From assembly GCF_000817735.3 (NCBI RefSeq), contig NZ_JTJC03000001.1, positions 62,001 to 126,000 of the forward strand: a DNA stretch of 64,000 nucleotides, given 5' to 3'. The translations under genes were made by a program, and so were the position numbers. The stretch's first letter is position 1. Every line of letters begins with the position of its first letter. The notes under the pieces are model-generated. The model made no database searches. It was given only the letters and a program-made list of their open reading frames with translations, and was not told where the DNA came from. This document shows, in pieces, positions 13,571 through 54,135 of the stretch. This stretch comes from Scytonema millei VB511283 (lineage in GTDB: Bacteria > Cyanobacteriota > Cyanobacteriia > Cyanobacteriales > Chroococcidiopsidaceae).

Positions 13571-14275
13571 ATGAATCTGAGTAGCTTAGCGCAGCCATTG
13601 CTCAAAGAAAAGCAAGAAGAGTTAGATATTCAAGATTTACAAGGTTTATGGCGAATTAATTGGAAAATCGATCGCATTACACTTTACTCAGGAATTTACA
13701 CGCGAGTAGACCAAGTGTTTATTATTTGGGCTGTCATTGTTGGCGTTATGTTTGCCACAGCGCAGTTTTTACCAATTAGTTGGACGACACAAGCGATTTG
13801 GTGGTCGAGCTTGACTATGGTTGGTGCGATCGCCATGATGAGTCTAACTTGGTTTTGGGCAGGAGTAGAACGTCTGCGTTGGGTCGTCTGTGGTTGGGCA
13901 ACTTTAGTACTAACGGGTGTGGTTTTAACCGATTTGGGGATATTTCTTGGTTGGGGTGAGATTTTAATCCACCTATGCTCAATGTGGTTGAGTTTGAGTG
14001 CAATTGGTTATTTGTTTACGGGCATTGGTTTGCGATCGCGTGCTTTATTCCTGGCTGGATGTCTTCACCTTTTGGGCGTTAGTTTCTTATCTTATGTCGG
14101 CGGTTGGCAGTTTCTCACAACTGGTGCGGTCATGAGTTGTAGTTTACTACTGCTCGCTCAATTGCAATGGGATATGCGATCGCCGATTGAATATGCACTA
14201 CTGACTTCCACACAGCAACAGTTTAACCGCCAGCAGCACCAGCAAAGAATTCAGAATTTGGAAATAAAATCTTAA
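13571..14275 (+). CDS. Integral membrane protein of unknown function
   Basis: 234 aa with about six membrane segments (from residue 50 onward: VFIIWAVIVGVMFATAQF, IWWSSLTMVGAIAMMSLTWF, WVVCGWATLVLTGVVL, and three more) and a soluble, Gln-rich C-terminal tail. The N-terminal LQGLWRINWKIDRITLYSGIYTRVDQ is distinctive, but I do not recognise a named family. Likely a cyanobacterial lineage protein. Confidence 0.75.
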   Translation: MNLSSLAQPLLKEKQEELDIQDLQGLWRINWKIDRITLYSGIYTRVDQVFIIWAVIVGVMFATAQFLPISWTTQAIWWSSLTMVGAIAMMSLTWFWAGVERLRWVVCGWATLVLTGVVLTDLGIFLGWGEILIHLCSMWLSLSAIGYLFTGIGLRSRALFLAGCLHLLGVSFLSYVGGWQFLTTGAVMSCSLLLLAQLQWDMRSPIEYALLTSTQQQFNRQQHQQRIQNLEIKS

Positions 14276-14404
14276 AAGATTGTTTCAAACAATACAGAAT
14301 TTTCTGACATAGTTCATAATTAAAAGTACAAACTATTAGCGAACAAATCGCTAATGTTGTTCAACCAGAGCAGGAATTTTGCTGTTTAGTCTGCTAATTT
14401 CCGC

Positions 14405-14610
14405 CCGTAGGAGAACGATGTCAGGGTAGAAAATGGTTGCCCCAAACTCGCGAGCGTTTAATTGACCGTACAACTTAATTGTTGGTAGTGCTGGTATTGG
14501 TGTAGGGTTTTTATCGTTTCCCCTGCTTTACAGTCTTTAGAGGGATGTGAAACCATCCATACTAGAACAGCCTGACAAGACTGACAACTATAGCTATTGC
14601 CAACAAGCGA
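14405..14610 (+). ncRNA. Structured RNA, copy A of a two-copy family
   Basis: Shares with 53784-53925 the block GGAGAACGATGTCAGG (14410-14425), a 6-bp hairpin GTAGGG/CCCTGC with the 13-nt loop TTTTTATCGTTTC (14502-14526), a stem CAGTCTT/AAGACTG (14531-14537, 14577-14583) enclosing a 5-bp hairpin GGATG-TGAAAC-CATCC (14543-14558), and the motif AGAACAGCCTGA (14564-14575). The outer stem pairs 14479-14490 with 14595-14606. Several helices differ in sequence from copy B but keep pairing. G-U pairs fit only the plus strand. A terminator hairpin follows at 14701. I do not recognise the family; both ends are approximate. Confidence 0.72.
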
Positions 14611-14700: not shown

Positions 14701-14730
14701 ACCTCAAGTGTTGTGAACTTGAGGTTTTTA
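14701..14730 (+). terminator. Rho-independent-type terminator
   Basis: ACCTCAAG (14701-14708) pairs perfectly with CTTGAGGT (14718-14725), followed by TTTTTA. It lies about 95 bases after the structured RNA and before the ndhF3 leader, so it probably ends the RNA transcript. Confidence 0.75.
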
Positions 14731-14953
14731 TTTTGGAAGCTTTTTATTTGGGATTTTTATTTAGGTAAAAATACTTTTATTTTTGATTTCTTGTTCTTGT
14801 CTTCTGTATCTCGTCTGAGGGCGATATCGCTCGTTCTGCTAATCGGTAGCTCTCGATACTAACCATTAGCAATTTCAATGTACGCTTTCAAACCATCAAC
14901 AGCAATCAATTTTAAGCATAGTTATTTTCAATGATTTTCCCTTTATAAGAAAA

Positions 14954-53453: not shown

Positions 53454-53702
53454 TTGGTCATTTGTTGACGGTTGACGGTTGACGGTTGACACTAATTATT
53501 CTCCCTTGTCCCCCTTGTCCCCCTTGTCCCCCTTGTCTCCCTGCTCCCTATTCCCCGTTCTTGAATTACTAAAAATACTTAACTATTGACACCTAGCCAA
53601 GCATATCTATCTGCTTTTAGGTAGAAAAAAGTGAATGAATAAGCTCTAACTTTCTAGTGAGTAGAAACTCTTACTGTGGTGCGATCGCTACTCTTTCTGG
53701 AA

Positions 53703-53730
53703 TTGCTATTCTAATAACTGTAGATAATAA
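53703..53730 (+). promoter_or_regulatory. Possible promoter of structured RNA copy B
   Basis: TTGCTA, 16 bp, TAATAA, about five bases before the proposed RNA start. Pattern match only. Confidence 0.35.
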
Positions 53731-53734
53731 AAGA

Positions 53735-53925
53735 ACGCACTGGATGGGGGTTACGCCGTTGTGACCCAGAACCATTAGCTGAAGGAGAGCGATGTCAGGC
53801 AAATGGACAGTGCAAATATCGGTTCTAAACGGTGTGGAGTTTTTATCGCTTCCTCCACTTCGTTACTACCAAGGGGAGGCGAAACCCTCCAGCAGAACGG
53901 TCTGAGGTAGTTCACGTTTAGAGTT
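53735..53925 (+). ncRNA. Structured RNA, copy B of a two-copy family
   Basis: A 5' hairpin GGGTTAC...GTGACCC is followed by GGAGAGCGATGTCAGG (53784-53799), an outer stem TCTAAACG/CGTTTAGA (53824-53831, 53915-53922), a hairpin GTGGAG/CTCCAC with loop TTTTTATCGCTTC (53834-53858), a stem ACTACC/GGTAGT (53865-53870, 53906-53911) and inside it GGAGG-CGAAAC-CCTCC (53875-53890), then AGAACGGTCTGA (53894-53905). Same order and loop sizes as copy A at 14405. Ends estimated. Confidence 0.75.
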
Positions 53926-53957
53926 GGCTTTTATATCTAACTATATGTTAATCATTC

Positions 53958-53991
53958 AGCCGCTTAGAATGCGATTGTATTCTGAGCGGCT
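53958..53991 (+). terminator. Strong hairpin after structured RNA copy B
   Basis: AGCCGCTTAGAAT (53958-53970) pairs with ATTCTGAGCGGCT (53979-53991) over 13 bp with one G-U. No long T run follows directly, though a T-rich stretch begins 17 bases later. Confidence 0.65.
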
Positions 53992-54107: not shown

Positions 54108-54135
54108 GTAGGGGCGCACAGATGTGCGCCCCTAC
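54108..54135. repeat. REP-like palindrome (GTAGGGGCGCACAGA type)
   Basis: Core palindrome of the family also seen at 5257, 18612, 35083 and 60623. Confidence 0.85.

Follow-up and report, generated by a model that had tools for sequence, protein, structure and literature searches.

Covariation links two homologous modules of the cyanobacterial CyVA-1 RNA through reciprocal loop-loop pairings: a possible fused dimer

The window, the whole 64,000-nucleotide stretch of Scytonema millei VB511283 DNA analysed here, contains two segments (copies A and B) whose hairpin stems differ in sequence and still pair. Which RNA do these segments encode, how are its parts held together, and what might it do? 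An initial annotation had described them as an unnamed family with two copies, distinguished by helix pairs with compensatory changes: GTAGGG/CCCTGC (14502-14507/14521-14526, copy A) and GTGGAG/CTCCAC (53834-53839/53853-53858, copy B), both closing 13-nt loops; GGATG/CATCC (14543-14547/14554-14558) and GGAGG/CCTCC (53875-53879/53886-53890), both closing 6-nt loops; and CAGTCTT/AAGACTG (14531-14537/14577-14583) and an ACTACC/GGTAGT core (53865-53870/53906-53911). All six helices are present as placed, as are the conserved blocks that the two copies share. The limits of the RNA had to be redrawn: the elements begin earlier, at 14362 (A) and 53737 (B), and the region originally marked starts inside the first module, denoted D1, and for the most part covers what lies 3' of it. 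The first three-way junction and both of the inter-module pairings described below had been missed.

The CyVA-1 family and its second module

To the 5' part of the elements Rfam gives a name. In a cmscan comparison, D1 matched CyVA-1 (RF02965) with 74.4 bits in copy A and 80.5 bits in copy B, and D1 of the third copy in the genome, C, reached 78.6 bits, all above the gathering cut-off of 41.4. The genome carries three copies rather than two (two of them within the window), every one with both modules, and the family has many more members among relatives in the phylum and in Acidobacteria. Because the Rfam comparison named the 5' part CyVA-1, novelty at the level of the family, which the initial annotation had itself said an Rfam match would remove, is gone. 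CyVA-1 was reportedly described by Weinberg et al. in 2017. Although the family itself was already known, three features are new here, namely a second module, loop-loop pairings that run reciprocally between the modules, and loops that are self-complementary in relatives with a single module; in the literature searched, which did not cover the original CyVA-1 paper, we found no description of the second module, of reciprocal kissing helices or of the contrast between single and tandem forms.

In copy A, D1 spans 14362-14439 on the plus strand and consists of the helices P1 (14362-14367/14434-14439), P2 (14370-14373/14391-14394) and P3 (14399-14406/14424-14431); in copy B it spans 53737-53813 on the same strand. 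The RF02965 model has the same P1/P2/P3 structure as D1 of both copies. However, it comprises 77 positions and a single module, with no loop-loop pairing in the cmscan structure line, whereas in the cyanobacterial RNA D1 is followed by a further module, D2, to which two reciprocal pairings connect it. The cyanobacterial CyVA-1 RNA is about twice the catalogued length.

D2 occupies 14498-14595 in copy A and 53830-53925 in copy B, both on the plus strand, and scored 85.3 and 100.8 bits, respectively, with R1, a D2 model built from members that include these two copies. Its plan is like that of D1: an outer helix (P1'), a P2' hairpin whose 13-nt loop is rich in T, and a P3' hairpin carrying a small inserted hairpin (P4'). 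The helices of the initial annotation listed above are P2', P4' and P3' of this module, in that order, the full P3' of copy B extending over 53863-53870/53906-53913. Single-sequence folding predicts P1' at 14479-14606 in copy A (14479-14499 with 14585-14606, bulged) and at 53819-53927 in copy B (53819-53831 with 53915-53927), on the plus strand in both. Compared alone with RF02965, D2 stayed below the cut-off, with 17.3 bits (E 0.31, over 14494-14536) in copy A and 28.8 bits (E 9.2e-5) in copy B. Because it shares the structure of D1 and because R1 matches single modules (see below), D2 is read as a divergent homologue of the CyVA-1 module lying directly 3' of D1, although by score it is not a member of RF02965.

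To define the spread of the tandem form, two surveys were combined. RF02965 matched 34 of 60 relatives and 29 of 386 genomes across the window's phylum (28 of the 29 above the cut-off). D2 followed on the same strand after each of the 66 distinct above-cut-off matches from both surveys and after two of the five weaker ones; where measured, P2' started 16-79 nt after D1. Of 40 relatives searched with R1, precisely the 29 with RF02965 gave matches, 39 in total; these matches are not blind, since R1 was built from 46 tandem elements. Two tandem loci were found in Acidobacteria, and the 70 tandem elements counted below comprise these two and 68 from the window's phylum. From the 71 survey matches, three without D2 (g300, g013b and g017b, all below the Rfam cut-off) were dropped. 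D2 of g012 and g043b was anchored by hand, and the automatic finder left seven others without P3' and placed P3' in a wrong register in some rows; for the counts, its P3' register was replaced by a MAFFT alignment. Two further tandem elements of one genome (L169 and L172 in G429), with D2 confirmed, lie outside all counts.

The name CyVA-1 suggests that the family occurs in Verrucomicrobia. In the phylum of a genome labelled Spartobacteria, RF02965 gave no match above the cut-off in 288 genomes, and R2, a model of single modules introduced below, gave one weak match in 387, both under strict filters with few candidates scored per genome; neither search pointed convincingly to verrucomicrobial hosts. 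A DNA pattern gave 95 matches; 19 of the 80 that were listed, mainly those with non-cyanobacterial labels, and two matches on viral contigs were inspected by eye, and only L089, L104 and L138 were CyVA-1. RF02965 agreed with these calls in the 11 genomes searched, three with matches and eight without. L104 and L138 are cyanobacterial-type tandem elements on contigs labelled Gracilibacteria and Tatlockia, which are probably mislabelled or mixed assemblies; the coordinates of L138 are identical to those of a genome (G017) grouped with the window's family. Adjacent whole tandem elements were seen in G416 (L036), G137 (L035/L055) and G043 (L026), with starts 240, 726 and 230 nt apart. Two degenerate CyVA-1 loci, L067 (G013:C1:49305-49377) and L068 (G017:C100:6259-6330), lack D2, and their D1-P3 loop is damaged.

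Across the 70 elements, 43 pairs in seven helices were 92.8% paired, compared with 74.1 +/- 0.5% after shuffling (0 of 500 shuffles as high) and only 36.7-47.1% in slid structures, and two-sided changes occurred in 39 of the pairs. As pairing exceeds both the shuffled and the slid controls, the helices are real and selected. The earlier proposal of a plus-strand structured RNA with selected base pairing was right. In D1, P2 and P3 were paired in 81.1% and 89.4% of cells, with two-sided changes in all 12 pairs; D1 P1 was left out of the pair count because the alignment breaks it, and both window copies match P1 in the RF02965 comparison. Folding energies of four stretches were unimpressive (z between -0.80 and -1.94), so that the structural case depends on covariation.

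Loop-loop pairings between D1 and D2

The loops of the two modules are complementary in a reciprocal manner. In the pairing denoted K1, the D1-P3 loop faces the D2-P2 loop; in K2, the D1-P2 loop faces the D2-P3 loop. In copy A, K1 joins AACGAT (14414-14419) to ATCGTT (14513-14518), and K2 joins GCTGTT (14381-14386) to AACAGC (14566-14571). The corresponding partners in copy B are AGCGAT (53788-53793) and ATCGCT (53845-53850) for K1, and GCCGTT (53755-53760) and AACGGT (53896-53901), with one G-U pair, for K2; all eight segments are on the plus strand. Six pairs of K1 were found in 64 of the 70 elements and at least five in 67, and the corresponding numbers for K2 were 49 and 66. With each distinct loop combination taken once, none of 20000 shuffles matched either K1, which is realised by 19 combinations, or K2, with 30. 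Loops of the same module could pair at six positions in 13 (D1) and 19 (D2) of the 70 elements, and P2-P2 or P3-P3 pairing was possible in none. Summed per element, cross pairing exceeded within-module pairing in 67 elements and equalled it in three.

K1 and K2 together were paired in 95.9% of cells (84.8% in shuffles; 26.8-53.3% when slid), had 9 of their 12 pairs changed on both sides and gave a covariation score of 0.519, compared with 0.060-0.205 for slid structures. Further standard pair types numbered 16, with no excess over the 16.9 found in shuffles, and the outermost K2 pair is weak, being unpaired in 11 of 70 elements with one side invariant. Because shuffles ignore relatedness, which inflates shuffle tests, state changes were counted on a tree made without the loop columns. 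This yielded ∼22 changes for K1 pair 6, ∼8 for K1 pair 5 and ∼12 for K2 pair 5; at these three pairs, 2, 1 and 1 of the 70 elements, respectively, are unpaired. A decoy, AACGGT near P1', was tried as a partner for K2. Its pairing was matched by 19891 of 20000 shuffles and is thus unsupported, which makes it an unplanned negative control.

Collectively, covariation shows each copy as one predicted RNA with two homologous three-way-junction modules, in which six bases in the P2 loop of each module pair with six in the P3 loop of its partner. Through these pairings the modules are held in a reciprocal clasp.

Single modules in Acidobacteria

In a search of 297 genomes across Acidobacteria, RF02965 matched 3. 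Relatives of two positive genomes were then searched in overlapping sets of 41, and 14 matched in each set. Twenty distinct loci were kept, the two tandem ones and 18 single modules. R2, built from these 18, was run on 298 genomes belonging to one order and matched in 71. The final set of 73 single modules excludes G827 (28.6 bits) and the four weakest R2 places, and one exact duplicate was removed (74 to 73). R1, the D2 model, matched 17 of the 18 single loci at the place found by RF02965, 8 at E < 0.001 and the others at E up to 0.024; no second place in these loci matched up to E 0.1. Since a model of D2 recognises them where RF02965 does, the single module appears to be related to both D1 and D2.

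The P2 loop of these modules is complementary to their own P3 loop, with six pairs in 67 of 73 and at least five in 72. Thirteen loop combinations were seen, for example AATCGC/GCGATT, AACGGC/GCCGTT, AACGAT/ATCGTT and AAGGGT/ACCCTT, and 0 of 20000 shuffles matched this complementarity. The loops were paired in 98.4% of cells, compared with 79.3% in shuffles and 25.5-65.0% in slid structures, and the covariation score was 0.612, compared with at most 0.087 when slid. Two-sided changes affected five of the six pairs, a number reached by 6 of 500 shuffles; further pair types (7, compared with 8.0 in shuffles) showed no excess, and the pair that matches the outermost one of K2 was unpaired in 5 of 73 modules and showed no two-sided change. 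The loop pair AATCGC/GCGATT is common to 26 of the 73 (most of L261-L288), where the pair as a whole has switched relative to the other types. Thus, as shown by covariation in these alignments, the acidobacterial module occurs mostly alone and has a P2 loop complementary to its own P3 loop. A separate idea, that the AAGGAG present in most D1 loops mimics a Shine-Dalgarno sequence, was rejected: some single modules have AAGGAG, but many have GAAGCGG, GAAGCAC, GAAGTCC or similar there, and AAGGAG is therefore not the conserved point.

Both forms are most simply explained together by a two-fold dimer of modules, whose halves would be separate chains in Acidobacteria and parts of the same chain in Cyanobacteria. 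A lone module would form a homodimer through two reciprocal P2-P3 kissing helices, and the tandem form would be this dimer fused into one chain. Upon duplication, the two loop contacts could become distinct; the two kissing helices would then diverge so that each loop finds its own partner. In single modules, covariation cannot separate a loop-loop contact in cis from a homodimer. The proposal that CyVA-1 would be an RNA homodimer in Acidobacteria, with two identical reciprocal kissing helices, and a fused dimer in Cyanobacteria stands in our judgement at an even balance.

The single module could instead be a monomer in which the P2 and P3 loops kiss in cis, the partners having been swapped after tandem duplication with no RNA dimer at any stage, a scheme to which we give somewhat under an even chance. 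The loop complementarity of single modules fits it equally well, local concentration would favour a contact in cis, and the tandem modules that can still pair six bases in cis (13 of 70 for D1, 19 of 70 for D2) agree with it. It is opposed by the tandem elements, 67 of which (of 70) pair better across modules than in cis, with three ties, and by the lengths of P2 (∼5-6 bp) and P3 (∼8 bp), which would suit two equal P2-kiss-P3 rods running between modules better than loops lying side by side in one module.

The fused dimer may be compared with known RNAs. The tandem glycine riboswitch, like tandem CyVA-1, is a single RNA in which two homologous domains contact each other; unlike CyVA-1, it is a cis-regulatory leader, and we know of no reciprocal P2-P3 loop pairing in it. 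In the guanidine-II riboswitch (PMC7544219 and other reports), two hairpins are joined by a loop-loop interaction as in CyVA-1, but this is a small ligand-dependent riboswitch, whereas CyVA-1 does not occupy the position of a leader and would form kissing helices of six base pairs. OLE, ROOL and GOLLD are likewise natural bacterial RNAs whose chains are joined by kissing loops, among other contacts, with intermolecular covariation; they are large and their assemblies are shown by cryo-EM (PMC12286853), whereas the CyVA-1 contact comes from covariation and, in Cyanobacteria, lies within one chain. Functional RNA oligomers have so far been rarely observed in nature, according to PMC7357161.

Transcription, neighbouring genes and possible role

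Promoters, terminators and neighbours were counted in 51 of the 70 tandem elements, 19 near-copies having been set aside by hand, and genes were called with a crude ORF caller. Of the 51 elements, 11 have the sequence TATTCT, resembling a -10 box, at 12-36 nt ahead of D1, and 40 lack it; of 204 control windows placed farther upstream, 1 has it; in copy B the box is found at 53707-53712 on the plus strand, starting 30 nt before D1. A terminator-like hairpin within 220 nt on the 3' side was found in 25 of 51 elements, compared with 5.8 expected from shuffles, and upstream stretches also scored in 10 of 51. The initial annotation had placed a terminator hairpin after each copy. In copy A this is a good one, with a T-run (14701-14733, plus strand); in copy B the hairpin (53959-53990, plus strand) is strong and terminator-like, but its T-run is weak. 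The CyVA-1 element may be its own transcription unit. Two further features were seen around copy B. By eye, short tandem repeats at 53465-53550, upstream of the copy, consist of TTGACGG units and then CCCTTGTC units. Between the copy and cp12, at 54108-54135, lies the palindrome GTAGGGGCGCACAGATGTGCGCCCCTAC, which is of a kind dispersed in cyanobacterial genomes.

Of 50 genes upstream of the elements, 39 have the orientation of the element; of 49 downstream genes, 28 have the reverse orientation. The largest cluster of genes found downstream only comprises eight loci of the same family, with the genes facing the element. Another cluster lies upstream: homologues of a 234-aa gene occur at 16 loci in several families, with CyVA-1 85-229 nt downstream, and include 14 of the 21 elements with a long linker, the kind to which copy A belongs. 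In the window this membrane-protein-like gene, assigned by BLAST clustering, lies at 13571-14275 on the plus strand and has no Pfam or NCBIfam match. Among 36 acidobacterial loci (34 single, 2 tandem), no ORF cluster was common to more than four.

Long-linker copies like A are often preceded closely by one gene in the same orientation, so that co-transcription with this upstream gene is possible. CyVA-1 might then be an sRNA derived from the 3'-UTR of that gene, which in copy A would be the 234-aa gene. Both the 16 loci of this gene and the prevalence of same-strand upstream genes fit such an origin, which we nevertheless regard as unlikely, since most short-linker copies, including B, have other genes upstream, 11 of 51 elements have the -10-like box ahead of them, and the 36 acidobacterial loci have no gene so widely shared.

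The downstream genes had been named as ndhF3 (A) and cp12 (B), and both names hold, with matches to TIGR01960 (NdhF3) and PF02672 (CP12); a CO2 hydration protein (TIGR01964) was also matched. As all of these belong to carbon metabolism, the element could be a cis-acting riboswitch or leader through which copy A controls ndhF3 and copy B controls cp12, both being inorganic-carbon or Calvin-cycle genes. This is highly improbable: the elements end ∼545-625 nt before the start codons, with hairpins intervening; among the clustered neighbour genes, those downstream of A and B recur only in the two genomes of the same genus; with 28 of 49 downstream genes reversed in the crude ORF calls, a conserved same-strand downstream gene was not found; and the acidobacterial loci lack a common ORF cluster. 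Orientation and distance of the neighbours thus disfavour a riboswitch for carbon genes, and the initial view that the RNA is not a simple riboswitch is probably correct. Scarcely credible is a palindromic or mobile element acting as DNA, despite the inverted repeats, the presence of as many as three elements in a genome, and the adjacent whole-element repeats in three genomes, because 45 cells of the plus-strand loop-loop pairs are G-U, the upstream gene of copy A-like elements is conserved, neither copy matches plasmids at E 1e-5 (which also disposes of a plasmid element) and CyVA-1 has been detected elsewhere as RNA, in halite cyanobacteria as an sRNA of low abundance (PMC7002113).

We therefore return to an RNA that works away from its neighbours. 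The tandem RNA would have its own promoter and would act in trans; its most likely task would be that of a rigid protein-binding scaffold, not the control of neighbouring genes; from the comparative evidence, CyVA-1 is probably a trans-acting structural RNA of this kind. The explanation as a whole, a trans-acting RNA of two reciprocally kissing modules whose tandem form would be a fused pseudo-dimer of a module that probably homodimerises when alone, we consider likely.

RF02965 covers about half of the cyanobacterial RNA and omits the pairings between loops. Work based on the 77-nt model, be it on structure, on targets or by knock-out, would therefore deal with a truncated molecule. For a small RNA with living single and tandem forms, comparative sequence alone yields predictions at the level of nucleotides. 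If the fused-dimer proposal is true, CyVA-1 would provide a gene-fusion route by which quaternary structure of an RNA becomes tertiary structure, as is known for proteins.
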